Positions 4,101-42,640 of a DNA stretch of 64,000 nucleotides are shown in pieces. This stretch comes from Siphonodentalium dalli (Eukaryota > Mollusca > Scaphopoda > Gadilida > Siphonodentaliidae), in the NCBI GenBank assembly GCA_032622095.1, contig CP136066.1, positions 98,789,319 to 98,853,318 on the forward strand. Reading direction: 5' to 3'. The position numbers and the translations under genes were made by a program. The notes under the pieces are model-generated. The model was not told the origin of the DNA and did not search any database. It saw nothing but the letters and a program-made list of their open reading frames with translations. How positions within the stretch are numbered: the stretch's first letter is position 1; each line of letters opens with the position of its first letter.

Positions 4101-7100
4101 AAGATGTTGTTCTTACTACAGATCTCCTATTCTAAATGGTGATGTGTTTGCCATCTGGAGAAAGTGGTTCGAAACTCTAGGAAGGTTTGACGAGAAGATA
4201 GAAATTCTGGAGGTAGCATTGCTTGGTGAGTTAAGAGATGAACTACTGTACAATACTTTTAATTCCTTTGAGTCTATTGTTTGTTGATTTCATTGTTTGA
4301 GACCACGAAATCAACATCCAACGAAATTACTGACTGTTGAGTTAGTAGATAAATATGAATATACAACATGGAAACAAAGATCGGATATTACATCTGTTTT
4401 CTGCATGTCATAAAATGGGTGGGGGGAAAAACATGGAAGAAAAGATGAAATGTAGTCAATTTTTATAAAATATCAGGCATTATCAAAATAAATATTTTAT
4501 TGTTTATATACTATATCGTCTGATCCCAAACAATGCAAAATGAATTGGTCTCTTAATGAAGGCTAATGGTTTCACCATGCACAAGTTTCACAAAACGATA
4601 AATAATGACCTCGCCAGCATTGGAAATGAAGACAGTAGCTATTAGTGCATTGATTGTCTGATGCCTTTTCAGGGGGTAATCAAGCCTTGAAATAGTGTGT
4701 CTGTCATTTGCAGAATGAGGTTCCCAGAGGGTGAATTTAGTGATGCTACCCCACATAGCGGGCTAGCATCACTAAATTCACCCTCTGGGAACCTCATTCT
4801 GCTGAGGTGTAAGCAGAATGAGGTCCCCAGAGGGTGAATTTGGTGATGCTAGCCCGCTATGCGGGGTAGCATCACTAAATTCACCCTCTGGAGACCTATT
4901 CTGCAAATGACAGGCACACTATTTCAAGGCTTGGGGGTAATGTCACAAGAGCTATACTCGTCACCTCAGAATTGACAGTCACGTTATATTCAACTAATTA
5001 ACGGGTCTCTTCCGGTGGTTTCTAGAACAACAAAGTTGGTGGAACATCTTGATATATCGATTTGAGATTATAGAGTATTCCATTGATCGAGGTCAAGGAC
5101 GAGTATAGCTCTTATGACAGTACTCCTCTACCCTGGAATACCTGAGGTACACTTTCTCAATAGTGACTATTCAACAATGTTATAAACCCATTATTTTAGG
5201 ACCCATTGATGTGGATAAACATGAAATCAGGTCCCTATGAAATGGCAGTACATATTGAATGTACTTGTTTAATTGGAGTCAAAAATAATATTGGTTGTAC
5301 CTGTATAACTTGTTTTGGCTGTAGAAGGACATGTGGCCAAAAATTTCCAATAAGAGTGTTGGATTGTTATTTGCTGGATCACCATGAAGTCCCTCTGGGC
5401 TGGACTGTCTTTTTCATTACAAATTTATAATTTTGTATTATTGCTCTGCAGAATGGTCTTTACGTATCTGGATGTGTGGGGGCTCAATTGAGATTATGGA
5501 GTGCAGCCGTGTCGGACAAGTGCAATTGCCAGAAGGTAGCTCTGATAAGGGCAACAGTATTGTCAGGTTAGAACATCAGAATTAACCTTTCCATGACTGG
5601 AGCTTCCTGAAATTTTGTGCCAATGCATTCTCTTATATATGTGAGTCTCCCATAGGGAGCCTCACATATATAAGAGAATGCATTGGCCTAACAATATTGA
5701 CTTGTAAGCCAATGCATTCTCTTATATATGGGAGTCTCCCATAGGTAGCCTCACATATATAAGAGAATAGATTGGCCTTACAATATTAACCTTTACCTTG
5801 TAAGCTAATGCATTCTCTTATATATGGGAGTATCCCATAGGGAACCTCACATATATAAGAGAATACTTTGGCCTAACAATGTTGACTTGTAAGCCAATGC
5901 ATTTTCTTATATATGGGAGTCTCCCATAGGGAGCCTCACATATATAAGAGGATGCATTGGCCTAACAAAATTTACCTTGACCTTATAAGCCAGTGCATTC
6001 TCTTATATATGCGAGGCTCCCTATAGGATACTCACATATATAAGAGAATGCACTGGCACAGGATCTCAATTACATTATGGATACTTTGAAATATACATCA
6101 GTCAAACAGTAGAATAAACTTGTTGTTTATAACATATATTTAAAGATAGTGTATCTTTCTTAACTAGTCTTGGATGAATCGGGCATTTGTGGCTTGGATC
6201 AAATCTCAAATCGAATAAGGGCAAGGATTTTACATCGAATCGAATCATCACTTATTAAATCACTAACAATCAGTTTTGAGCAATTGGTTATTGCAGCGTA
6301 CTGAGAGAAGTTTTCCCGAGACTACTCACATTTTATCCAGCATATTTTTACGAATTCTCCTACCGGTTGAACTCTTTAATCCTGACCAGTAATTTTCAGA
6401 GACAAAAATATAAGGTTCTAAGTAATCTAATCGAACTGTTTTGTACATTTTGTGGAAATGGTTAGATTCGATACATGATAGACATTGTGACCACAAGATC
6501 ATATTCACACTTCTGTGGTGAGGGAACGAATGTATTTTTCGCAAGCGCGATAACTCTATTACTCTATTGCATTAACTAGTGAAGTTTTCAATGTGTTCAA
6601 GTATTGGCTGGAGTCTTATGCGACAATACGTGTGTATTTGCTTAATTCTGCTAAATGTTCACGAAATGAAATGAAATAAATGGTGTAACCAATATTCAAA
6701 ATATAAGCGAATCCACTCGAATCAGTTGGAAGATTTCGAATGAAATTGAATCTCGAACCTTTGTCGGAGTCTACTCTTAACACTTTCTTTACTAAATGGT
6801 TTCTCCCAACAGTTATAACAGTATCCACTGGAATGGTCTATTATTCATTTGGAGGGATGTTCAGCTAATAAAAGCAGATGACAGTATGACGAAGTACAAG
6901 TGCAGAAGGTTTCATATTCATTGGAGGGAAATGTTCAGCTAATAAGTTCAACAATGGTCGTTTGTTGAACTTATTATCTGAACGTTTTCTACGGGAACCA
7001 CTCATCAATGACTATTTAGTATAGAAAAGGTTAACAAGTTTTATAGAGTTTCTGGGGTATAAAATAATAAATATGAATCAAAGACACCTGTCCGCAAACT

Positions 7101-10100
7101 CTTCTATGAGTTAATATTGATTGCATTTTTATTTTTAATGATATAATACATACAACCTCTCGGGATGGTTTTACGGGCTATTTTTAGAACAGAGACTTCA
7201 TGCAATCTCGCATAAATATTTGGAGAGTAGCAAGAGGGAGAACTCTATCTTGATAGCATCATCCATCAAGGCCAAAGTAATTTCGAATCAAGAGATTTTG
7301 CTGTCTACATAAGATAATATAACAAATGACTTTTTTGTGCATTAAAGATAAAACAATTTAATCAATCTTCAGTTTTGTGTGTATTTTATTCCCAAAAATC
7401 TATTTGTAGTCTTAATATCATGTTTTATAAAAATTATGTTGTTGTTGTAATCGTGGCCCAGAAGAGATATACAATATTGAAAGAGACTCTCAACACATTT
7501 ATGACTTGTGAATGTATATCCCAAGTTCGCCCACACTTTTTCTCAGTTGTGACTACAGGTCCCTGTGGGATACATCATGTTCAGCTTCCAGATCCATCTG
7601 TAATAATTCTGTTATTATGTACTTGCTGACGAATGGCCATTTGCTGAATGCTGCGAAAAAAAAAGCATTATTACTTCTCATATTTACATGACGTCCCTGG
7701 TTTCCAGATGGATTGGACATTTTACTTTGCAATTAAGTTTTATTGTTGGTTTACAGATAATCAGACTCTATAAATCACCAATGTGAACAATATAAAATTT
7801 GCAATTGCCATTTGATTTTTGGTCGATTTGACCTATGATATGATGAATGATGGTGGGCATCCATCCGTTGTCTGTCCTTCCATGACCCAACGTAAACTCT
7901 ATAAACAAACGTAATCCAATTTTGACCAAATATGAATCATGGCTTCTACTCATGAATCTCTTGGTGAGTTTGAAAACCAGTTCTGCCCAAATTTTTTTCT
8001 CGGAGTTATTCGCCCTAGATTGTTTACCGGGTGTCTATCTCATGACATAAGTGTGATAAATTTTAACGTAATCAGCTTTTTACCAAATTTGAGTCATTTC
8101 TTCTACTCATGAATCTCTTGTTTCTCTAGTTATAATCAAAATAATGATTATAGTTATTGTATCAACAAGGCCTGACCTTAAACTGTCAAATAAGGCTACT
8201 TCTCATTGTGTATAATTGGTATTAATCCTGATTAATCCATACATTTATACATCTAATTTATTTATCACATTTAGTTTTTATATATTTATGGGTAACAATG
8301 CCAGTACCAATGCTAAATTATAATTTGTATGTTGTAAGTGGATGTCTGGAATGCTGAATACATCTATAAATTCCTGAAATTTTGTGAAAGCCCTGTGCCA
8401 ATGCATTCTCTTATATATGCGATTCTCCCATAGAGAGCCTCGCATATATAAGAGAATACATTGGCCTAACATTATTTACCTTCACCTTGTAAGCCAATGC
8501 ATTCTCTTATATATGCGAGGCTTCCTTTGGGAGACTCACATATATAAGAGAATGCACTGGCACAGTGACTTTAATGCTGCAACTCGCAGCTCCCTTCACG
8601 AAAGGGTTAAAGCCATATCATGACATTGTCAGTTTTATGGATGGAGGAAAGGCTATTAAAACCCTGTGCCGATGCATATAATAATGCGAGTTGCCCTTGC
8701 ATTGATAAAAGAAGACATTGGCCTAACAATATTTACATTGACCTTGTAAGCCAGTGCATTCTCTTATATATGCGAGGTTCCCTTTGGGAGACTCGTATAT
8801 ATAAGAGAATGCACTGGCACATGACCTTTAATGCTGCACCAGCGCAGCTCCCGTCATAAAAGGGGTAATAAATTTTATCTTAACAGGAGCCTTAGGAGGA
8901 CAGTGGAGGTTTGGCTGGATCAATATAAAAGATTCTTCTACTTCTCGAAGCCCTCTGCTAAAGCCTTACGATACGGAGAGTAAGTGTGATGATCTAACCA
9001 TTTCTTTACTAAATGGATTCTCCCATCAGTTATAGACGTATACATTAGAATGGTCTATTATTCATCTCGAGGGATGTTCAGCCAGGGTTTCCGTTAGTAC
9101 GGCTCAGCGTCCGTAGGACGGCCTCATTCCCCTCGCTGATGATCTGTTTGATTCATACATGTACCAATCAGTAGCAATATGTCATGAAAAATCCGGCTGC
9201 AACGGGAGTTCAGGGGTTAAACAGAATACTAATGAAAAAGCGGGTCAGTTGAGCACAGTGTGTTACGGGTACAGCGTAACCCTTTGAAAACAAAGGGCCA
9301 AAAACTACAACGTTATGTTTGGTGTGCATTGAAATAGCGACATTATTATATACAGCGTAATAAATGTGGCGGAAACATCAAAGAATGTCGGACTGCTGAG
9401 TATGGATATTTTTTTTATACAGGATTTCTGTGGTTGAAACTACTCACGCTCGGAGATCCCATGCTACCGTACGATTACATAATTTGATAAAAGAATGCCG
9501 AATTGCTGTGTTAGGCAGAGTAGTGATCAACATACGCCAAAATGCGGTTCTCCTACCAAATGAGGTATCTACCTCCGAGATCCCGTGCTATCGTACTATT
9601 ATAATACGGAACCTGTCCCAAATTAGTCTTTATAGCGGGAATTCATAGTGACAACACCATTCATTTGACCAATATTACATGCATGGAGAATAAACACAAA
9701 AAACATATCCCCCACCCCCCCCCCCCCCCCCCCCCCCCCCCCCATATGGAGATAAAGTCAAAGTACGATTAATAGTTTCGTTGTCCCGCCTGGGTCCCAA
9801 ACACAAAAAACGCTGCGCGCATGTTTCCATTTCCGGCCAAATCTCAATTATATTTTATAACACGTTGGCAAAAACTTCTATAGCAGCGTTGACAAGCTAC
9901 GCTTTCCGAGTTTGAAAGATTTCGCTATCATTTGTATTTCGCCGCTATAAATATATCCTGCAGACAAACCCTGCAGTATGACGTCACAGCGCACCAATAG
10001 TTTTACCGCTTGGCAGAATACATGGAATATATCAGTTTCATTTTCACGGAAGCTACTTGAAATTCTAGGAAATACTTAATTCAATTCTCCCAGCTAGGTA

Positions 10101-13100
10101 TTATTGGACAATGCATATACTAGTATGCTATTTAGTGTTAGTTTCATTATACCTGTCGGAATCTTATTGTAAGTTATAAATTAAAAAAAACTTGTAGCTT
10201 GTTCATTTATATAGTCTTCAATACGGCAGTTTTACGTGCGTAATTACATGACTAATTATCTGGATACCATCAACAGAATTAATGCACCCACGGAAAATGA
10301 TCGACTTGCGTAATATACGTAGCTTTGGGTTGCTTTGTGGGACACTCAGGTGCAAGGAAATGGCCACTTTTCAGTGTCAAATAGCTAAATTTTCGCCCCA
10401 CGGGACGAACGATGGTCGTCCTGTCGCGTTATGTGTTTCCCCAATACAGACTCATTAATTTCCCCTTGGCGGAAACCCTGGTTCAGGATATATGAGCCGA
10501 CGACAGACATACGAAATATAATACAAATGCAGAAGGATTCATATAAATTAAACTGCCTGTGGCCGCATGATGAATTTATTATCTGAACATTTCCTAAGTG
10601 AACTAATCGTCAATGAGTTTTTAATAAAGAAGGGGTAAAAAAGGTTTTTCTGCTTCTCAGCCATCTGATGGTGTGTATTGACGCATTGCATTGAATTGGA
10701 ATATAAGCTACACCACTAAGACATTCAGAGTTGCGGCCCTTGTTTGAATTGGAAATTTGTGTATGTATGAAAATTTCAGGAAAGGATGCCCACTTCTTGG
10801 ATTTAGATCCAGATTTAGATTTAGATCCAGTAACTTGATGTCCCTCTGGACAATATTCCACATAAGTTTTATGATTTTATAAGTTGTTCAACTAATAAAC
10901 TGAATATTCCTGCAAAAGAATCAATGGGAATAAAGTAACTACTCATCAGCAACTATAAAGTTATTAGAGGTTTATAAAGAATCCAAAAATGATCCACTGT
11001 TATATGAGGATTGTGTTCTCTTTAACAGCATATCACAACAAAGGAAGATACAAGGTAGACTTCAGTGTAAGCCATTCCGATGGTATCTGCAAAATGTATA
11101 CCCGCAGCTCAAGTAAGTATACTGGTATTTATTTCACACCTGTTGACATGAGGTACATGTATTCAACGTAAAACCAGACAATGAGTACATATTGTTGTGT
11201 ACCACAAGTAACACATAACTACAATGTATATAATGATAACAATTCATTCCGGCTGATTCACAATTTATTAGTTTTTCATCAGACTTAAATCACAACAAAG
11301 GTAGTTATTGTATCAATGATGTTCACAGTCATGGATTAAATTTATCTGGCAGAAAGATGTGGAATAAATACAGAACAAAACTTACATCGTAATTTAGAAT
11401 TTTGTGTTGAAGTCGTTACAGTTAATTTCTCTTTATTGCATAGCATCAGCGCATGGCTTTTCTTATGCAATTAACCAAATATGCATAAAGCCGAAATCAC
11501 GAAAAAAAAAACCAGGCCGTTTTTCACCGGCATCAGCAAGAATACAGTGTATTGTTCATTTTCGTTTCATCATCAATTTAGTTTGTTTAAAAATAATAAT
11601 GTCCATAAAGAGCTTCATCTATATTCATTTTATTTTATTCCATATTATCTTATCAGCATCATCATCATCATCTACAATTGTAAAATGTTCAAGAATACAA
11701 TGATATTCTTGCCGGGAACGGCATCCCCATTTATAATATACTCACTACATACATGTTTATATTGAGAATATATTCAATAAAACATCAGTTAGAAATGCAT
11801 TACATATATGTATTATTAAACAGATAAATAAACATTAACTACCCACCAACTATCAGTTAGTAGCCACCAAGAACTGGTAAGAAAAATGTCAATGTTTCCC
11901 GATAAAATACTCTTTTCATTGTTTCACATTATGAGAAGGGGGATAATTCTATTCATTAACAGCACCATTTCTATTCTAGATAAATGTATAGAGTCCGGTG
12001 TCTTCTGGTGAAAAGTCACATGTCACTCCACTCATATATCTTTCTAAAATTGGTTTTTGTCCTGCCCATGTTTCAATTGGCAGCATGGGGGTATCCCAGC
12101 ACCCAAGGTGCAACTTCTTGTAAAATTTTTGATCATAGTCGGCGTATTAAGTTACTCAAACTAATCTGGGTGTCAGGTAACTCACAATGGCTCAATGAGT
12201 CATCACCATGTATATAACAATTAGCACTTATGAAAACAAATTCCAATGATCTCTGATCGCGAATGCATGGGCTGTGTGTGCATGGGATTATTGCTTTGAT
12301 GTAGGCTCAATGAAATTGTTTTATTAAATAGCCGGTGTCCGTCCGTACGTCCGGAAATGGTTTCCGGATGATAACTTTAGTTTCGGTTATTAGATCAAAA
12401 GCAAAATTCATATGAGTTTATCAGAACAAAATACAGGTCAAGTTCGAATATGGGTTTGCTCCGCCCATTTTTGTGAGAGTTATGGCCCTTTTTTAGCTCA
12501 CCTGAGACGAAGTCTCCGGTGGAGCTATAGTCATCACTCCTCGTCCGTCGTCCGTCCGTCCATCCGTCCGTCCATCCGCCTTCATTACACACCTGTTGCT
12601 ATATTTTGGTCAATCACATTCCTTTGATTAGTGCGTCCATGATAGGAATTCGCGACATAATCCTTCCATGACTGGAGCTTCCTGAAATTTTGCGAAAACC
12701 ATGTGCCAATGCATTCTCTTATATATGTGAGTCTCCCATAGGGAGCCTCGCATATATAAGAGAATACATTGGCCTAACAATATTTACATTGACATTGTAA
12801 GCCAGTGCATTCTCTTATATATGTGAGGCTCCCTATGGGAGACTCGCATATATAAGAGAATGCACTGGCACAGGAAATTTAATGCTGCACCAGCACAGCT
12901 CCCATCTTTAAATGGATAATAGACATCATGCATGACAGCCAATTTGGATATAAAATTTAAGAGAATAACTACTTGCAGGAAGATTATTCTCTACAGTAAT
13001 GCTCTAAGTAATCGACTTCTGAACCACAGCAGAATTATGGGTAACTTTTCAGGATTTAGTCGGAAATATGGCTTGTTGCCATTCATCGGAAAGCTCGGGG

Positions 13101-16100: not shown

Positions 16101-19100
16101 ATTTTCTTCATTTTGTGCCAATTTGAGGTTATATTTTGACTTTACTTGAAGAGTTTTTTTAAGATTTGGTTATTTGTATGCATGTCAGTAATGAGACTAT
16201 GCACAAGTGTCTTATCCATATACTATACTTCAACAAAGCCTCCGCTCCAAATGAAGCCACCGGTTCGGGGGACACTGGCCGAGCAGCCTTTTATTTGATT
16301 AATTACGCCAACAAGGTGTTGACACTATCCAATTACTGATACAACCCTTTGCTGTGAATGAAAAATGTTGATAGCACCTGATCCAAAATGTCTGTCGCTT
16401 TGTTCCCTTGTTTATAGCAAAACATTTCAAGTAAGTACTTTTGTTGACTGTTTGTTTTAAATTTGAAAACTGATTAAATAATTGGCATACATGTATCATC
16501 ACCCACGACTATCCATTTGTTTCAAAACCAACTACACATTATAATATCCTGATATGACTAAATACAAAAAACCCATGAAGTCTTATATATATGGTTGTTG
16601 CAAAAAATGAAAGTCTGGATGCCATGATACATCTTTAAGACAGTATTTTTAAATATAGTCATATTATTGCATTTGCAGGCCGCCTGTCATGGATGAGTTG
16701 GCATTTGGCCACATACAACAAGGATCGCTCTGTCTCGATATCAACACAGGACATGTTCCCATCACACTTACGCTGACAGAATGTACAAGTAAAAAAAATA
16801 CATTGGTATGTCAACGAAGCCAGAGTATTGTGGGTGACTGGTTCAATTAACCCTTTCTATACTAAATGGATTCTCCTGTTCAGTTATAAATGTATACATT
16901 GGACTTGCCCATTATTGTCCCCCGAAAAATTATATCTCCGTCAAAGGTATCTTGCCCACTGAACTATATGGTATATCCCCAATTATTAACAAGGAAGGGT
17001 TAACAAACCCGCGTTGAAAACGGAACGAAAATTCTGTGGTACATTTTATCCTGTTTCCTGACCGGTAACCTCTGATGACGTCATCTCCCAATGTCCATTT
17101 AAACTTGATGCCAGATCGTTATTCTTCACTTTTTCCCTTGTTAACGGAAGGAACACATCGAAGATAAGTTGACAGTTTTTTGTGTTATACAAAAAACATT
17201 ATTTCCGTTAATTGTTATGTTGAATTGTGCAATTGACTCGCGTTGCTATAGCGATTAGCGTCCATGTTTTTAAACGATCGAGAATGTTCATAATTCAACG
17301 AATGCATCTTTTTTCTATTTGTCGTGGAACGGACGAATAAATTATTCAATAATAGATGCACATTTGGATATGATAAAGACGCTAAAAATCTTTATAGCAC
17401 GAATCGATTGCACACATGTGCGATTTTCTGTGGTCGAAGCAAAAATTACCACGTGCGTCGCTTGGTTAGTAACAGGCCCAAACTAAACAAATAGTGGTGA
17501 CTTGGATTGAATATCCTGCAAATAAAGTAGATACCGGTAGTTCCCGAAAGACATGGAGACTGAGATGACCTCCCTTTTGGAGCTTAGAGCTATCAATGTA
17601 TCACCTGAGTATTTTGCTGGACAAGGAATGTGTAACCACCCCCCCCCCCCCCCTAGACCGATGAAAAAAGTTAAACGGCTACAAGCTCAAAAAGAGCCCA
17701 GACACCCAGTAATCCGAGATATGCCATTGTCGATAAGGATTGAGATATCATGGACCGAGAATCTATACTAGTGACCGGGAAGAGACTCTCGCCGAAATAG
17801 TCGATTGCACCACCCCTGTAATACATCCAGAAGAATTTTAATGTATGGAATACTGACCTAATCCGACATAAGGAACCATACATGTAATTGTTGGAACCAA
17901 AAGACAATTTGTAGAAAACCTAGAGTCGCTCTGATGACCAGAGCACATGACAATGCTGTTTATAGAAAGCACCAGAAAAATCAAATGTGCCAAGATGATC
18001 CATCAATGTAGATTCAAATAGGGCCGTGTAGTATTAGTGAGTACTAGAAAGGAAACGTTGCATTGACCCTATAACCAGGAAGTACAGGAATAAGCTATTC
18101 GTGGAATTACCCCATTTGCCGGTGACACGTCAAGGAAGTCCCTGCCTGCCCGCGTTAGCCACAACATTGAGCAAATTACAGGCTTACGTAGTCCGAATGA
18201 CCGCCGTGAATACCAATGGAGACACCCGTGTGTGGACACTAGCTCGTGCATACAACCAATTTCGGAACATCTGTAATAAACCATTGAATACGTGAACAAG
18301 AGGATCCTAATGAATCAGTGAACATTATGGCCTGAAGTGCGAAGCTAGTGGGCGGAGCATATGATCTGGCATCCTACACCCAATGCTAGTGAATACCTCG
18401 CATGAGGGGAAGCATCTGGTAAGGATCTTCTGTCTGTATGAATGAGGACTGCCCTGTCACCAAATGTTTTACATTTGTTGAATGGTATCTGCAAAAGAAT
18501 TTTTTTTATTAGATCTTAGGCCATAATTCAAATTTACCGTTTTCTCCTGAACAAGATCATTAATATAAGATGGTGCCATATTATATACCAGAAGTAGAAT
18601 TTTGAAGATGACACAGTACAAGACTGGCAGCCAGTGTAAAGTCTCCAGCACAGGAGTCATATGCTCAGACCATGGGGTGAAACATACAACCCAAGCTTAA
18701 GCATGTTCTGTAAGCGTTTGTATTGGCAATGAGGTACACCATATAACAAGAGAGTTGCAATAATCAAGATGAGATGCAACAAAGGCATGAATAAGAGTCT
18801 TGGTGGAATTGTGTGTAAGGAATGGTCAAATCTATCTAATTTTATGCAATCCATAGAATTCTTTCTTGCATACATTACTGATGTGACTGTCCATTGACAT
18901 GTTTTTGTCGAAATATGCTCCTTAAGTTGCGAACATTATTCCCAGAATTGATGTGGGGATCACCAACATGAATAGAATCAATTATATAAGGAATGCCATG
19001 TAAAATATGGTATTACCGTATGACACATTTGTCTTTTGGCAGGATTGGTCTTGGAGAAAGACGGGTTTCATCATTAGTAGCTCGATGTGCCTTGGTGCTG

Positions 19101-22100
19101 ACCCAATAGACAGTCATAACTACGTGCTTGCTGAATTCTGTTTATACAGCGAGTCTCAGGTAATCATAATCATTAATATATTACAGTCACAGTCCAAATC
19201 GACATTAAAGCAAGAGTTGTGTGATTTCCCTATTTCTGTTCAACCTATAGTTACAATATAGTTATACCCCCACTTTCGAAGAAAATGGGGGGTATACTGG
19301 ATTGACTGCGTCCGTCCGTCCGTCACGCTTTCTCCGTTCGTTTGTATGTCCGTCCGTCCGTCCGACCTCATAACTCGAACAACTATGAACCGATTTCATT
19401 AATTTTGTGTATGCAATCTCCTTAGGACGGTCTCTCCGCATGACGCTAATTGCGGTTCGGTCCGACTTTTTTTTTTCAAGATACGCCTCTTTTTTTACTT
19501 ATTTTGACTTAGAAAATTCTTTCCGACTTAATAACTTTAACAAATATGAACCGATTTCAATAATATTTGGTAAACATACTTCTCACAATACCCTCTCTAC
19601 ATGATGCGGCTAGGGATTGGCTCAGACTGTTTTTCGTAATATTACACCTCATTTTCGACTTATTTTGACTGTCTGACTTAATAACTTTAACAAATATGAA
19701 CCGATTTGAATAATTTTTTCTGTACAAGCTTCTTGTGACACCATATCGATATTATTAGTCCGAATTTTTCTTTAAAGTTAAAAATCTTTTTGGTTGAGTT
19801 TACGGATAATGCGGGTTGAATTTGCCACGGTGGGGGTATTCTAGCACTCGAGTGCACACCTCTTGTTAAAATTGACTATTTCTGTTGTTTGTGGTAGACA
19901 ATTAGAGCTGCATATTGTGTTTAGAAGTTTCAATCCAGAAAACATGAATGCCACCCTCATATCAACGACAAAATAAAGGACATATGAGATAAATGAAATA
20001 AAGAAAACTTCATATTTATTCTAAAGGCAAATATTATTTGATTTTGGATTACAATGTGTCCCAGCCGTGGTTACATTATATACTATTACATCGTGATATT
20101 ATAAAATGTCCAAACACTTTGTGTGCCTTTAAACATGCAGTGCATATATGTCAATGGTATGAGAGCAGGCCAGGGCATGGCAAGCATTTCGCTCTTCTAT
20201 GTCCTGGACAGGGTTCACGCTCCCACTTGCCAAATTGGCCAATGGCCAAAATAATTCACATTTGGCAAAAGTTTTGGCAAGTCAAGAAATATGGAAACTA
20301 TTGCTCAATTTGTATTACAAAATGTAGTGGTGTTTTGTAAGATTTAGGAAAAGTTAATACCTCTATCATGATGCAGCTAATCTGATAGCATGGTGGTGTT
20401 TATACAGCTAATCATCTATTAATGTGCTCTTCTAATGAAGCAACCCTTCTAAAATGTTAGTGTTCAGTTCAGGCCCCAAGCTAGGAGGCGACTCAGGCGA
20501 AATTCTCGCCCTTGGGCTGGCGAAGTCGCCCTCGGATGTCCGCAAGGCAAAAACGAAGTCGCCTTCAAAATTTGACAAAACTAGCTTAGGATTTACGGTA
20601 ATTTTACCGGTGAAAATCTGACTCGTTTTGCAAAAAAAAAAATATATCTAGATCGACTTAACTGTGCCAACGAGGCATTTTATTTATCAATTATACATGG
20701 TGTACCCTATCCACATATTCTAATCAGGTTGTGTGCTTTTGGAAATGGCAAATTGCTCTGACCAACGAAGTTTATGATGAGCTACTGGTTCGTTTTAAGG
20801 AGACTGGAATATAGACCTTACTTTGTTCCGTCGGTCATTTTGTAACCGCAAATTGTATAGCCATACATGGTCACCACCACTCATGCAGTAGCCAATGTGA
20901 ACAACTAATACTGTCTTTAAATTTAAACTAAAACATATCTATGAATTTTCAATTTTACAAAAGTATTTTGTGTCGGACTCCGTTTCCCAATCCAACTTTT
21001 TTACTTTTTGGAATTGGATATTTATTATGTTTACAAACAAGAACACATGCTTGCTTTATTAAACACAGATGTTTGAATGTGCATTGGAAGTAATTTTAAT
21101 GTTCTTAGTTAAATAAAACATCTACATAATAAACTATTACTATCCAAACTCATTTAAAAGGATTAATTTGTGTCAAAACTATGTGTTTGCAAATTACAAT
21201 AATATTGTTGTCAATCTATCGCTCAGGCCACGTGCGCAATATACGTCTGTCAACGGTTGCAAATTAATTGCATCTTGGCCTACTTTGGTACAATGCAGGT
21301 ATTTAATTTACCTGCTGGTGTATATTATAAGCTCAACTGGTCTCTGTTAAGAACACATTACTAGTAATCAACACCTTTTTCTGACACAGCTATCAAACTT
21401 GTCAAGTTTATTGCTTTAATCGGATTATCATCAGACATCACTGATGGCATAGGGTCCTGATGATGCTACTCAACAATAAACTCGTTCCAAACAAAATTAA
21501 AAGCTTTTACACCTCCTTAATTAGTCCTTATTGATTATTTTAACAGACCCACATTACAGCAGTGGCCAAAAGCCATTTCCAAAAAATTAAAATTTATAAT
21601 AACAATTCAGATATTAAAAGTTATGAAGTCAATAATTAATAATTTCTTCAGATAAAGTCAACACTGACAACAGTTTAAAAAAAATTAAAGATATAAAATT
21701 TAGTTAAAATTTCAGATTATCGATCTATGCAGGTGCTATACTTGTGTTGTAACTTGCAAAATATGTTTTATCTTGTTGTTTTATCTTATTTATTAATGTC
21801 ATAAATAAAGCAAATTTTTAATATTTCCCCCTGAAGTCTCCCTAAATTTCCTGAAGTCTCCCTAAATTTCCTGGAGGGAGACTTGAAGTCTCCCTGTTCT
21901 GAACCCCTAGCCTGAGGCCTTGTTCAGTTATTGTAAGACACACCACAATAGAGAGGTGAGTACAGTATTGCTCTAATTAATCGACCCCTTAACCACAGCA
22001 AAATTATGGGTAACTTTTCATGATTTAGTCGGAAATATGGCTTGTTGCCATTCATCGGAAAGCTCTCCCCGAGAGCTTCCCGATGAATGGCAACAAGCCA

Positions 22101-24818
22101 TATTTCAAATTAAATCCTGAAAAGTTACCCATAATTCTGCTGTGGTTAAGGGGTCGATTAATTAGAGCATTACTGTATGATTAATAATCAACTGCTTTCC
22201 TATCGATATCAAAAGTCATTCAAACAGTGAATATAAGACCCAATGTTGCGGAACCTGATACTATCAGTGCTAGCTAGCGTTAGGCAATTTCTAAAAGAAT
22301 TTGGCAAAAGTAAATTTCGCTCCAACGCTGACCCTGGTCTTGGATGGTGAGCATAGACGTGGGTGTGTATTTTGTCTCTCTCATTTGTTATTCTTAGTAA
22401 TAAAAAATGAAAAAAATATTCTATTACGTGATCAATAGGATCCTGTTAGTGATTCAATTTGACGTGATATTACACAGAAGGTTGTATTTGATTTTAAATG
22501 ACGTGAGACTTCTGCGACTTCATCTAATATGTAAATGAAAATGTTCTTACCATTATCGTGGTTGAACAGAATGTAGATAACCATACATGTATCATACCCC
22601 CATGACCGAAGGAAATGGTGGGTATACTAGATTATGTGCATCCATCCGTCACTCCTTCCATCTGTCTGAGCCGTAGATGCGTAGATGAGTTTTCTGTTGG
22701 CAATCACCATGGCAGGTGAATCTTGACCCCTTCAGCGGAAGGAACAAGAAGCGGGGGCAACTAAAGTATAATCCTGGATGCTATTTCTTTGGAAATTAAT
22801 TACATTTGATTCAAAATGTCGCATGCACACATCTTGTATAGCGAAATGACAGCCCCCAAACGATTATTTTTCCGAAAATCCGTTACCATGTCAACCGGTC
22901 GCAATTTGGTGGTATTTACCCCAAAAAAATTAGAAGATTTATAGACTACGGATGATCACCCATATATCTATATTATGAGTTGTCATGTGGAGAATTCTTT
23001 CATGACAAATGGTCTGACCCAGCATTAAATTAATGCATACATAATTACATTGCTATAAAATGATATCAAAGTAAGCATTTTAACGTTAGAAAACGGGGCT
23101 TTGGTGGCACCCTCTGTCGGTGTTGGGTTATTTTCGAGCAAGGCTAGTTCCAGATGTTGCCAAAATATTTCTGGATCATTTAACTTCGGAAATCATTTAT
23201 ATCTGTTTCAAAATGTCGCAAACATATCGTCATATAGCAAAATTGCAGCCCCCAAACCCATATATTTCCGAAAATATGTTGCTATGGCAACCAGTCGCTA
23301 GTTGGTGGTATCACCCAAAATTTCTAGAAGATTTATAAACTAAGGTTAACCACCAGTTGTTGAATCTCAATGAAATTTGGATTACTGGATTGGGTTTGTT
23401 GGATTGACCTTGTACGTCTGGACATTTATCCATCCGTTTTTCCATCCGAGCAGATATCTGAGCCACAGGTTGTCAGATCACAATGAAAGTTGGTATGGAG
23501 GTTCGGTACTATGAGTAAATTCAGTGGAGTGTTCAAATGTTTTATTCGTGTTTTCCGTTCTAGAGTTATTCATCTTTGTTTATCTGGAAGTGTTGGTTGT
23601 CCGTCTGGGCAGATATCTCAGCCACAGGTTGTCGGATCTCAATGAAATTTGGTTTGGAAGTTCACCACTATAAGGACATTCAGATGAGTTTTCAAACGTT
23701 AATTCGGGTTTTCCGTTCTAGAGTTATTCATCTTTGTTAATCTGGAAGTGTTGGTTTTTTGTCCGGGCAGATATCTGAGCCACAGGTTGTCGGATCTCAA
23801 TGAAATTTGGTATGGAGGTTCACCGCTATGAGGACATTCAGTGGAGTGTTCAAACGTTTTATTCGTGTTTTCCATTCTAGAGTTATTTATCTTTGTTTAT
23901 CTGGAAGTGTTGGTTGTCCGTCCGGGCAGATATCTGAGCCACAGGTTGTCATATCTCAATTAAATTTGGTTTGGATGTTCACTACAAAGAAGACATTCAG
24001 AGGAGTTTTCAAACGTTTTATTTGTGTTTTTCATTCTAGAGTTATTCATATCTGCTTATCTGGAAGTGTTGGCAGATATCTTTTATTGTTGTAAACATGT
24101 GGGTCAACCCAAAATGACCGAAAAAAGATAGAGTTGTCCCGATAATTACGGAGTGACATCGTTTTAGCCAATTATTTTATTGAGAAGAAAATTGAATGTA
24201 TTATCACTTGTGTATCACAACATTTTGCCATATTACACTTGATTTTAGAGTTATCCATCTTCATCCGCAATTTTGTCCGAGACCATTGGTTTGACGACTC
24301 TTTTCTGGGCCACAAATAATTTATAATTTTGAGAAATAAAAAATTTAAAAAATCAATACCTGATCACTCTGAGCTTTGATGGGTGGGTTCCTCGATTCGA
24401 ATCCAATATTTTTCACCCCCGAAGCCAAAGAAATAGTCATTTTGGAGCGTTAATTCGGATTATGCATCTTTAACACTTATTTTTTCTGAGCTCTTACATT
24501 TCTAAGCTCTTACAAAACTTTTTACCTACCTTTTTACCTATTCTTCACTGTCACTCTTTGGCAAAACTGTCATGATTATAATTATGTGCTAATACCGGTA
24601 AATTCAATTCAAATCAACTCATTATCACTTTCCAGAAATGGCTGTTGAAAGAGAAGCATATTGTGCATACAAAATCCCAGCTCTGTCTCGACAGCTATAA
24701 GATATCGACCGGGATAGTGCTGACTCACTGTGATGTCAATACACAGTCCCAATGGTGGGGCGTTACCATGGAGAATGCGAGTAAACAGCAACATGACAGC
24801 AATGACCATGACCTCTGA
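1055..24818 (+). CDS. polypeptide GalNAc-transferase-like protein, 3' part of gene (8 exons, likely catalytically inactive)
   Basis: Family members start mucin-type O-glycosylation in the Golgi by moving GalNAc from UDP-GalNAc to Ser/Thr. Exons: 1055-1130, 4122-4225, 5452-5566, 8887-8979, 11029-11112, 16679-16805, 19043-19159, 24636-24818. All have AG/GT borders and agreeing phases, giving 298 residues. In order: GFDWN start of the second catalytic half, degenerate loop LEVAL (54-58) in place of WGGEN, CGG then CSRVGQ (77-82), EVWLDQYK (105-112), CKPFRWYL (142-149), then lectin repeats alpha (CLD 175-177), beta (CLG 215-217) and gamma (CLD 255-257, QWW 277-279). The membrane anchor and DxH motif lie left of the window. 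Loss of the active-site Trp and Glu and of the metal-binding His suggests a pseudoenzyme. Family assignment is firm; the exact subfamily is unknown. Introns are long and full of repeats. Confidence 0.93.
1576..1868. mobile_element. MITE with CTTCACACC terminal inverted repeats
   Basis: The ends CTTCACACC...ACACTATCCGG and GGATAGCGTATCAGGTGTGAAG, with the nearby pair ATTAGGGTGACAT / ATGACCCTAAT, form inverted repeats of roughly 50 bp. A direct AGT flanks both ends. The superfamily is not assigned. Confidence 0.6.
1891..2130. mobile_element. TTAA-A element
   Basis: Perfect TTAA ends with CCCTTTCAT / CATGGAAGGG. The second hairpin is collapsed (one arm largely deleted). Confidence 0.75.
2511..3381. 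repeat. (GTCC)n-bearing dispersed repeat, family E, long copy
   Basis: It starts with a hairpin ATACCCCCACTTTCGAAG / GGGGGGTAT, then a (GTCC)n run, repeated AATATGAACCGATTTCAATA motifs, and ends GGTGGGGGTATGCTAG...CTCTTGTT. It matches 19264-19865 over both ends. This copy holds extra sequence with a repeated CTCACTGACATCTCAGCA at about 3065 and 3178. Confidence 0.75.
3835..4090. repeat. dispersed repeat, family L (TTTCCGGATGATA...AAGTTCGAAT)
   Basis: It shares GTTTCCGGATGATA, ACAGGTCAAGTTCGAAT and AGAGTTATGGCCCTTTTT motifs with copies at 12330-12560 and 15760-16080. It ends just before GALNT-like exon b. Confidence 0.65.
4122..4225 (+). CDS. GALNT-like exon b (degenerate catalytic loop)
   Basis: The acceptor is ttcttactacag and the donor is GTGAGT. 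It encodes [16 protein letters not shown], matching the family pattern (T/S)P..(A/S)GG.F.(I/V)(D)R..F, followed by [13 protein letters not shown]. In active enzymes the end of this exon reads (D/E)(M/I)WGGENLE. Here it reads EILEVALLE with no gap. The alternative donor AG|GTAGCA at 4212 would break the frame of the next exon, so the GTGAGT donor is preferred. Confidence 0.88.
4681..4933. mobile_element. hAT-like palindromic MITE, family C (short form)
   Basis: CAAGCCTTGAAATAG is at the left end and its inverted copy at the right, flanked by a perfect 8-bp duplication GGGGTAAT (4673-4680 and 4934-4941). The interior is a double palindrome built on GAATGAGGTCCCCAGAGG. The 8-bp duplication points to hAT. 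Confidence 0.85.
4946..5120. mobile_element. small inverted-repeat element
   Basis: AAGAGCTATACTCGTC at the left is mirrored by GACGAGTATAGCTCTT at the right, a perfect 16-bp inverted pair. It directly follows the family C element. Confidence 0.5.
5452..5566 (+). CDS. GALNT-like exon c (CGG and CSRVG motifs)
   Basis: The acceptor is tattattgctctgcag and the donor is GTTAGA. It encodes [20 protein letters not shown] then [17 protein letters not shown]. This is the most recognisable GALNT segment (family: FRVWQCGG.LEI.PCSRVGH). The metal-coordinating His after VG is Gln. A TTAA transposon array starts 15 bp past the exon. Confidence 0.95.
5582..6066. repeat. TTAA-A element expanded to five tandem hairpins
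   Basis: The left end is TTAACCTTTCCATGACTGG. Five hairpins of about 68 bp follow at a spacing of about 95 bp (near 5622, 5709, 5806, 5893, 5989), where ordinary copies have two. The right TTAA end is missing. The array starts 15 bp past GALNT-like exon c. Confidence 0.75.
6777..7034. mobile_element. TTAA-D element
   Basis: TTAA ends with CACTTTCTTTACTAAATGG / TAGTATAGAAAAGG. The interior has GGTCTATTATTCATTTGGAG and a small hairpin GTTCAACA...TTGTTGAACTTATTATC. It is a second piggyBac-like, non-coding family. Confidence 0.75.
7055..7400. repeat. diverged copy of the 52.33-kb inverted-repeat element
   Basis: It shares TATAAAATAATAAATATGAA, CACCTGTC, CTTCTAT.AGTTAATATT and a distal AAACAATTTAATCAATC with 52331-52768. 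The right end is not defined. Confidence 0.4.
8370..8610. mobile_element. TTAA-A element (left end truncated)
   Basis: It begins inside the family at TTCCTGAAATTTTGTG. Two hairpins follow and the right end is CACGAAAGGGTTAA. Confidence 0.75.
8655..8869. mobile_element. TTAA-A element, diverged
   Basis: A decayed first hairpin and an intact second hairpin are present, and the right end is ATAAAAGGGGTAA. It ends about 18 bp before the acceptor of GALNT-like exon d, so the branch-point region of that intron may lie in it. Confidence 0.65.
8887..8979 (+). CDS. GALNT-like exon d (EVWLDQYK)
   Basis: The acceptor is ttttatcttaacag and the donor is GTAAGT. It encodes [20 protein letters not shown] then [10 protein letters not shown], matching the family block NxxRxAEVWMDEYKxxFY..xP. 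Phase 2 joins it to both neighbours. One transposon copy ends about 18 bp upstream and another begins about 14 bp downstream. Confidence 0.95.
8994..10636. mobile_element. TTAA-D element split by a 1.4-kb insertion
   Basis: The left part (CTAACCATTTCTTTACTAAATGG to GGGATGTTCAG) and right part (GCAGAAGGATTCATAT to GAGTTTTTAATAAAGAAGGGG) are the two halves of one family D copy. The element at 9083-10480 separates them. Confidence 0.65.
9083..10480. mobile_element. hAT-like non-autonomous element nested in TTAA-D
   Basis: The ends CAGGGTTTCCG and CGGAAACCCTG are inverted. The flanks GTTCAGC and GTTCAGG suggest an imperfect 8-bp duplication. There is no transposase frame. It contains a 29-base C run at 9715-9743. 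Confidence 0.6.
11029..11112 (+). CDS. GALNT-like exon e (CKPFRWYL)
   Basis: The acceptor is gttctctttaacag and the donor is GTAAGT. With the split Asp codon it reads [20 protein letters not shown] then LQNVYPQL. This is the family block D(I/V)S.R..LR..L.CKPF.WYL.N(I/V)YP that ends the catalytic domain and leads into the lectin linker. Confidence 0.95.
12076..12124. repeat. 3' end of a family E-type repeat
   Basis: TTGGCAGCATGGGGGTATCC followed by CAGCACCCAAGGTGCAACTTCTTGT parallels the terminal segment of the copies at 2511-3381 and 19264-19865. Confidence 0.45.
12330..12585. repeat. family L plus AGCTCACCTGAG/(GTCC)n dispersed repeat
   Basis: TTTCCGGATGATAACTTTAG through AGTTATGGCCCTTTTT is followed by AGCTCACCTGAGACGAAGTC, its partner GGTGGAGCTA, and a (GTCC)n run. 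The second module also occurs at 14113-14200. I associate such modules with bivalve genomes. Confidence 0.6.
12655..12918. mobile_element. TTAA-A element inside a duplicated segment
   Basis: Two hairpins with CCTTCCATGACTGGAGC at the left and CAGCTCCCATC at the right. The TTAA ends are mutated. The same copy with the same flanks is at 28553-28815. Confidence 0.7.
12994..13204. mobile_element. TA-B long-hairpin MITE
   Basis: The ends CAGTAATGCTCTAAGTAATC and their inverse are flanked by TA on both sides. The arms are nearly perfect inverted copies about 100 bp long (AGCAGAATTATGGGTAACTT, GGAAATATGGCTTGTTGCCA). TA duplication and CAGT ends fit a Tc1/mariner-type non-autonomous element. Confidence 0.85.
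13207..13653. mobile_element. hAT-like family C element, long form
   Basis: GTGTGTCTGACATTTGCTG and its inverse GCAAATGTCAGACACAC bracket the GAGGTCCCCAGAGGG palindrome pieces and about 230 bp of internal sequence. The left end abuts the TA-B copy at 12994. Confidence 0.65.
14253..15290 (-). pseudogene. 5'-truncated non-LTR retrotransposon (RT C-terminal half, frameshifted)
   Basis: In minus-strand sense the sequence encodes [20 protein letters not shown] then [20 protein letters not shown]. After a one-base frameshift near 15112 it continues [40 protein letters not shown] and [17 protein letters not shown]. This is the thumb and tail region of a jockey/CR1-type reverse transcriptase. The 3' end is a short (GGATA)n run at about 14253, as expected for target-primed insertion. 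Confidence 0.85.
15760..16080. repeat. two tandem copies of family L
   Basis: GGTTTCCGGATGATA occurs at about 15768 and 15939, each followed by ACAGGTCAAGTTCGAAT and an AGAGTT(A/G)TGG motif. Confidence 0.6.
16679..16805 (+). CDS. GALNT-like exon f (lectin alpha repeat)
   Basis: The acceptor is attattgcatttgcag and the donor is GTATGT at 16806. It encodes [20 protein letters not shown] then [31 protein letters not shown] is the alpha-repeat CLD motif of the ricin-type domain. An earlier GT at 16789 would leave the next exon out of frame, so it was not used. Confidence 0.92.
16847..17003. mobile_element. partial TTAA-D element
   Basis: The left end TTAACCCTTTCTATACTAAA is typical and the right end is GGAAGGGTTAA; the interior is shortened. 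It begins 41 bp after GALNT-like exon f. Confidence 0.6.
17004..18454. other. intron of the GALNT-like gene, no recognised feature
   Basis: It holds a C run at about 17639-17653 and scattered short frames with no family match. The higher-GC stretch at 17550-18440 could be a decayed element, but no motif was recognised. Confidence 0.3.
18455..18970 (-). pseudogene. L2/CR1-like non-LTR retrotransposon remnant
   Basis: Minus-strand frames, broken by stops and shifts, encode [36 protein letters not shown], then [12 protein letters not shown] and [19 protein letters not shown]. These are hallmark segments of L2/CR1 reverse transcriptase tails (LDYCNSLL, ITPVLKELHWLPV..., KILLL.YK...APSYL.DL). Confidence 0.85.
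19043..19159 (+). CDS. GALNT-like exon g (lectin beta repeat)
   Basis: The acceptor is gtcttttggcag and the donor is GTAATC. This 39-codon phase 0 exon encodes [20 protein letters not shown] then [19 protein letters not shown]. The repeat has the G-x-I...xMCL...(V)L..C pattern. The CLD Asp is Gly, so this repeat probably does not bind GalNAc. Confidence 0.92.
19264..19865. repeat. family E dispersed repeat, short copy
   Basis: ATACCCCCACTTTCGAAG, (GTCC)n, CTCCTTAGGACGGTCTCTCC, CGAATTTTTCTTTAAAG and the terminal GGTGGGGGTAT...GCACACCTCTTG match 2511-3381. It starts about 104 bp after GALNT-like exon g. Confidence 0.75.
20470..21921. mobile_element. inner hAT-like element
   Basis: A perfect 8-bp duplication GTTCAGTT (20462-20469, 21922-21929) flanks the inverted ends CAGGCCCCAAGCTAGG / CCCCTAGCCTGAGGCCTT. 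There is no transposase frame. CTGAAGTCTCCCTAAATTTC is repeated near 21830-21870. Confidence 0.78.
21963..22175. mobile_element. TA-B long-hairpin MITE
   Basis: TA-flanked, CAGTATTGCTCTAATTAATC at the left and its inverse at the right, with near-perfect arms. Confidence 0.85.
22594..22760. repeat. partial family E-type repeat
   Basis: ATACCCCCATGACCGAAGGA / GGTGGGTAT forms the opening hairpin, followed by CATCCATCC in place of the (GTCC)n run. Confidence 0.45.
23451..24085. repeat. tandem repeat, period about 160 bp, four units
   Basis: CAGATATCT starts units at 23451, 23610, 23768, 23938 and a partial one at 24072. Each carries GCCACAGGTTGTC, CTCAATGAAATTTGG, TTTTCAAACGTT-like and TCTGGAAGTGTTGG motifs. 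Confidence 0.75.
24190..24473. repeat. partial family F element
   Basis: It shares GAGTTATCCATCTTCATCCG, CACTCTGAGCTTTGATGG and GAAGCCAAAGAAATAG with the full copies at 29774 and 41692. The left end is missing. It ends 162 bp before the last GALNT-like exon. Confidence 0.6.
24636..24818 (+). CDS. GALNT-like last exon (lectin gamma repeat and stop)
   Basis: The acceptor is cattatcactttccag and the stop is TGA at 24816-24818. It encodes [20 protein letters not shown], then [20 protein letters not shown] and [23 protein letters not shown] and QxW motifs are present, completing a three-repeat beta-trefoil. A hydrophilic tail of about 19 residues follows. No clear AATAAA was seen before the next transposon at 25094. 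Confidence 0.93.
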   Translation, partial: KWLLKEKHIVHTKSQLCLDSYKISTGIVLTHCDVNTQSQWWGVTMENASKQQHDSNDHDL

Positions 24819-42385: not shown

Positions 42386-42640
42386 CAAGCCTTGAAATAG
42401 GGTGTCTGTCATTTGCAGAATGAGGTCCCCAGAGGGTGAATTTAGTGATTGCTACCCCGCATAGCGGACTAGCATCACCAAATTCACCCTCTGGGGACCT
42501 CATTCTGCTTACACCTCAGCAGAATGAGGTTCACAGAGGGTGAATTTGGTGATGCTAGCCCGCTATATGGGGTAGCATCACTAAATTCACCCTCTGGGGA
42601 CCTCATTCTGCAAATGACAGACACCCTATTTCAAGGCTTG
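42386..42640. mobile_element. hAT-like palindromic MITE, family C (short form)
   Basis: A perfect 8-bp duplication GAGAGAGC (42378-42385, 42641-42648). CAAGCCTTGAAATAGGGTGT and its inverse are at the ends. The double palindrome is nearly perfect. Confidence 0.88.

Follow-up and report, generated by a model that had tools for sequence, protein, structure and literature searches.

A GALNT2-type gene of the scaphopod Siphonodentalium dalli whose product is very probably unable to transfer GalNAc

Described GALNT proteins and the gene analysed

GALNT proteins reside in the Golgi, and GALNT enzymes decide which proteins receive mucin-type sugars. For GALNT2 (CAZy GT27), PMC4432651 describes Asp224, His226 and His359 as the Mn ligands, a flexible loop from Arg362 to Ser373, Trp331 as the key catalytic residue and four alpha-site GalNAc contacts of the lectin domain, and reports the protein as dimeric in crystals. 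Human GalNAc-T18 is presented in PMC9587226 as a protein whose activity in vitro is unproven, which enhances GalNAc-T2 and -T10 and is suggested to be chaperone-like; another review (PMC8472655) reports two peptide substrates for it. The latter review also states that, as an enzyme, human GALNTL5 (GALNT20) “seems to be non-functional”, and PMC5661822 ties GALNTL5 to male fertility and to the motility of sperm. The pseudoenzymes Tribbles and Rpn8, as described in PMC12869072, keep the fold, have lost catalytic or substrate-binding residues and have a non-catalytic role. Pseudoenzymes as a class are known already from such descriptions, and non-catalytic GALNTs have been discussed for vertebrates.

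Here a GALNT-like gene of S. dalli was analysed. The window, the whole stretch of 64,000 nucleotides presented (G000:C6:98789319-98853318, + strand, in a 2.2-Gb assembly of nine contigs), was covered together with the 30 kb to its left (94 kb). To convert a window coordinate p to its contig position, 98789318 is added; coordinates of 0 or below lie left of the window.

The window gene may be likened to human GALNT18, a member of the GALNT Y subfamily, by published description; the GALNT18 subfamily is termed vertebrate-specific in a cited title. GALNTL5 is described as having no lectin domain, whereas the window gene keeps one. Its apparent likeness to Tribbles and Rpn8, for which non-catalytic roles are described, lies in the kept enzyme fold and the lost residues. 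What is new is the breadth of the loss, extending over metal, donor and peptide sites, with the lectin domain kept. Among the literature matches listed there was no mollusc, bivalve or other invertebrate pseudo-GALNT, and no paper was found joining GALNT with WGGEN or GalNAc-transferase with pseudoenzyme.

Gene structure and GALNT2-type origin

To locate the exons, human GALNT2 and two long GALNT reading frames from this genome served as tblastn queries, and the flanks of the exons were read; two small exons were picked by scoring of phase-compatible candidates. The full-length gene comprised 15 exons on the + strand and 520 codons, with predicted anchor, stem, GT-A and lectin domains. Eight exons lay within the window, the number given in the first-pass annotation (e5 to e9 and three lectin exons), and seven in the 30 kb to its left (G000:C6 98772623-98788205). 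The latter were the predicted anchor exon (-16695 to -16597), the stem exon (-14352 to -14228, ending in YDRSIPDTRPA), eA (-13498 to -13403), eB (-8151 to -8084), eB2 (-6468 to -6403), eC (-4946 to -4825) and eD (-1200 to -1113). Within the window followed e5 (1055-1130), e6 (4122-4225), e7 (5452-5566), e8 (8887-8979), e9 (11029-11112), where the catalytic domain ended, and the exons of lectin repeats alpha (16679-16805), beta (19043-19159) and gamma (24636-24818, including the stop codon).

The two exons chosen by candidate scoring were eB2, with a score of 43 against 8 for the best unrelated candidate, and lectin beta, with 13 against -3 for the best unrelated candidate of the same region and 1 for the best of a control region. 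All 14 introns had GT-AG ends and all phases were consistent. The 14 exons from stem to gamma spliced to 487 codons and a stop, to which the anchor exon added 33. Premature stops, which the first-pass annotation had considered for the upstream part, were looked for and found neither there nor elsewhere in the 520 codons.

A strict scan for a first exon gave no candidate upstream. The relaxed version gave the anchor exon candidate, reading MVRKRRIIYIIAIASLFLIG..., 16.7 kb left of the window and in phase with the stem exon. By criteria set after this candidate had been seen, one anchor-like exon was counted in the upstream 15.6 kb versus one in about 171 kb of controls (none in 39 kb downstream on the + strand, none in 37.7 kb of introns and one in 94 kb of the minus strand). 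A type II membrane-anchor exon is assigned to the gene as a prediction.

Several repeats were noted in and around the gene. A family of ~90-bp repeats with the palindromic core TGCATTCTCTTATATATGCGAG was frequent in its introns (window 5619-6057, ~360-900, 1900-2100 and 8390-8860). A palindromic 103-bp unit, probably a MITE-like element, was present in ~1.9 copies each at 4710-4904, in the e6-e7 intron, and at 42415-42611, and a stretch similar to it ended near -5100. A 35-base run at 9709-9743 was nearly all C.

Both Pfam domains of the 487-residue protein (anchor exon excluded) were over their cut-offs, Glycos_transf_2 at 4.1e-23 and Ricin_B_lectin at 8.3e-13, so automatic annotation would label the gene an active GalNAc-transferase. 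The order of a GT-A domain followed by a ricin-type lectin domain is the architecture of the GALNT family (GT27), GALNT2 included. The best PDB match by phmmer was GALNT2 (E 8.7e-63, for a query of 281 residues from which one small exon was absent). Over residues 125-438 the window gene was identical to human GALNT2 at 121/301 positions (40%); the canonical GALNT2 of the same genome, on the same contig (C6:33.19 Mb), was identical at 185/236.

Introns were common to the window gene and this canonical GALNT2 at all eight comparable positions (codons 203, 245, 273, 302, 336/337, 379/380, 409 and 438, of which 203 and 438 were visible from one side only in the canonical gene). An intron at 336/337 was seen in none of the other 13 GALNT loci, where the match ran through (11 loci) or a single long open frame covered the site (2 loci). 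In a protein tree the window gene branched beside the pair formed by human and S. dalli GALNT2 (pair support 100), which it joined with a support of just 16; the GALNT2 origin therefore rests on the intron positions. With these shared, and the tree leaving the placement open, we take the gene to descend from an old duplication of a GALNT2-type gene.

A second copy of the gene was not found among the best 27 genome candidates scored; apart from the gene itself, the strongest match to the catalytic exons was 36% identical. Near-copies of other GALNT genes were seen on C6, namely the GALNT2 pair at 33.19/33.31 Mb and a second pair at 55.41/55.53 Mb (a 595-codon GALNT open frame, identical for L008 and L009). 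The members of each pair lay ~124-126 kb apart and represent either segmental duplication or unmerged haplotypes.

Active-site losses and constraint

The phmmer alignment with GALNT2 placed LEVAL of e6, without gap, opposite the catalytic WGGEN loop (Trp331 to Leu, Glu334 to Ala) and CSRVGQV of e7 opposite CSRVGHV, changing the metal ligand His359 to Gln. The first-pass annotation had read these replacements in the same way and had called the fold landmarks around them intact, as EVWLDQYK in e8 and CKPFRWYL in e9 were. Its description of the alignment as gap-free held at LEVAL/WGGEN but not overall: the loop after Val360 was several residues shorter, and a 4-residue gap lay near the e5/e6 border. 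It had also proposed leftward extension to the DxH motif, which proved to be damaged too: eC, 4.9 kb left of the window, read SSH, with Asp224 changed to Ser and His226 kept. Thus the metal ligands Asp224, His226 and His359 read Ser, His and Gln, two of the three being lost.

Altogether the window gene differed from GALNT2 by D224S, W331L, G332E, E334A, H359Q, R201K, F280P and W282V, the changes at Phe280 and Trp282 (in e5) falling on peptide-binding positions. The flexible loop Arg362-Ser373 was shortened within e7, and neither the MAFFT nor the HMMER alignment showed Arg362 or Tyr367. Twenty-one active-site positions were taken from the contact, metal and catalytic residues that PMC6994419 names for a snail enzyme (human number = snail number - 28). 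Five of them were as in human GALNT2 (H145, D176, S225, H226 and G308), 12 were changed (143 V, 201 K, 224 S, 253 L, 280 P, 282 V, 307 N, 309 D, 331 L, 332 E, 334 A and 359 Q) and four were missing (361, 362, 363 and 367); positions 143, 307, 309 and 363 vary among canonical paralogues too and are not diagnostic. The UDP-GalNAc contacts were for the most part lost. D224, H226, W331, G332, E334 and H359 were kept in 14/14 other GALNT loci of the genome, assembled from the matches listed in the genome search with two near-copies left out.

At least six exons (eA, eB2, eC, e5, e6 and e7) carried losses, while the stem, the cysteines and glycines of the GT-A scaffold, the lectin domain, the splice sites and the frame were kept. 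Catalytic residues were lost, and the frame and, as judged from sequence, the fold were conserved, as in a pseudoenzyme. The protein is very probably without polypeptide GalNAc-transferase activity. An enzyme turned to another donor or to metal-independent chemistry could account for the kept GT-A scaffold with His145, Asp176, His226 and Gly308, but it is very improbable: only one of the three metal ligands remains, the Trp loop and Glu334 are gone, as is the mobile loop that carries Arg362, and no new conserved motif was recognised.

Could LEVAL be an artefact, either of an assembly error or of alternative splicing that would restore WGGEN? In one gapped alignment of e6 with the DNA of the canonical GALNT2, the LEVAL codons may arise by a compensated frameshift, an origin unneeded in another alignment. 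Against an artefact, the catalytic losses occupied at least six separate exons, and neither a second loop exon nor an alternative exon with an intact WGGEN was found in the 94 kb by tblastn with three GALNT queries (L007, L008 and GALNT2). A WG-loop pattern search of both strands of the 94 kb gave a single match, WSSEQ at -14592, outside any GALNT context. The e6-e7 join was in phase 1 with GT-AG ends, and the donor of e6 lay at the codon and phase of the canonical GALNT2 intron, by which the junction is indirectly confirmed. We regard an artefact as extremely improbable.

Among 29 columns invariant across the paralogues and human GALNT2, 6/8 catalytic columns versus 4/21 others were lost (Fisher p 0.0089); variable positions were left out of this test. 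The eight were the invariant ones of 17 catalytic positions chosen after PMC4432651 and PMC6994419. Pro366 of the flexible loop was entered as one of the four lost others and was kept in the HMMER alignment; if it is kept, the contrast is larger. In a model of neutral drift that ignored indels and took sites as independent, the joint probability of no stop in 487 codons and at least 6/8 catalytic changes peaked at 1.8e-6. With the WGGEN loop counted as one event (at least 4/6 changes) the peak was 5.3e-5, and adding splice sites and other invariants gave smaller probabilities still. Codon positions 1, 2 and 3 agreed with the canonical GALNT2 at 0.55, 0.64 and 0.39 (225 codons), a pattern of coding constraint, and the third base agreed in 16/36 fourfold sites of identical residues.

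Recent neutral decay from GALNT2 was rejected on the open frame over 520 codons and a joint probability of at most 5.3e-5. The unequal losses and the low joint neutral probability indicate that the catalytic residues went under continuing constraint. Constraint on the protein very likely persisted while activity was lost, and the gene was very probably a pseudo-GALNT under constraint at that time. For the period of activity loss, rejection of neutral decay bears out the earlier view of a maintained pseudo-glycosyltransferase instead of a decaying pseudogene.

The branch of the window gene in the protein tree was long (1.01 substitutions per site), so a later relaxation of constraint is possible, though two of the 14 paralogues, at 1.21 and 1.00, exceeded or nearly equalled it. 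The long branch would also suit a young pseudogene, in which a constrained non-catalytic phase was followed by loss of function too recently for stops to appear. Over the 487 codons, one unit of neutral divergence corresponds to ~69 changes that create a stop, so that below a divergence of about 0.04 the frame would often still be open. Such a pseudogene nevertheless needs the earlier constrained phase, because the catalytic losses are too many for a short neutral time; neither a stop nor a frameshift was present, and no intron had lost its GT-AG ends. We consider it improbable.

Possible function

Since the frame, the predicted anchor and the lectin part are intact despite the catalytic loss, the gene was probably kept for a non-enzymatic job. 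Its product would be a catalysis-free protein derived from GALNT2, predicted to be membrane-anchored and resident in the Golgi. For a pseudoenzyme of GALNT2 descent whose genome still encodes GALNT2 itself, the simplest role would be that of a GALNT2 partner or modulator; most likely it would pair with or assist active GALNT2, tuning the stability or activity of the latter. We hold with moderate confidence the reading as a whole, namely a complete GALNT2-derived protein, very probably unable to transfer GalNAc, which would be a Golgi pseudoenzyme most likely partnering GALNT2. The step to a GALNT2 partner is inferred from analogy with GALNT18 and from common descent only, and the choice of a partner or chaperone of GALNT enzymes over a lectin or scaffold standing on its own is tentative. 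Loss of the peptide-binding aromatics argues against a substrate-capturing decoy.

A stand-alone lectin or scaffold, in the Golgi or secreted and with no link to GALNT2, would use the GT-A domain as a platform and bind glycoproteins by the lectin domain or a new surface. It would agree with a lectin domain that is complete and over the Pfam cut-off, with the kept Asp458 of the alpha repeat and with the emptying of both catalytic and peptide sites. In the alpha exon, however, Tyr471, His474 and Asn479 were all replaced by Thr, so that three of the four GalNAc contacts named in PMC4432651 were changed and GalNAc binding by this site is doubtful; moreover, the entire catalytic domain, and not the lectin domain alone, was retained. 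We think such a protein unlikely and keep to the GALNT2 partner as the preferred reading.

A more far-reaching form of the partner reading, held with low confidence, is that a dedicated pseudo-GALNT2 which arose by GALNT2-type duplication outside vertebrates, lost its metal, donor and peptide binding and retained its predicted anchor and lectin domain might regulate active GALNT2, and that this control of O-glycan initiation might have evolved independently of GALNT18. The GALNT2 paralogue would offer a clean test of whether a non-catalytic GALNT role is separable from transfer, a point debated for human GALNT18 and GALNTL5.

Tandem arrays were observed across exon-intron borders of GALNT paralogues on contig C8 of the same assembly (L026:4524-5327, L020:385-853, L023:1-381 and L025:3767-4590). 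They comprised ~20 copies of a 40-bp unit holding a DSHCEC exon end and a GTGAGA donor, 5.4 copies of an 86-bp unit with a WGGENLEMSFR exon end and donor, 6.3 copies of a 60-bp unit with an acceptor and CGGQLEI, and ~5 copies of a 93-bp unit with RLAEVWMDDYKYY. These arrays grew out of splice junctions in three GALNT genes.
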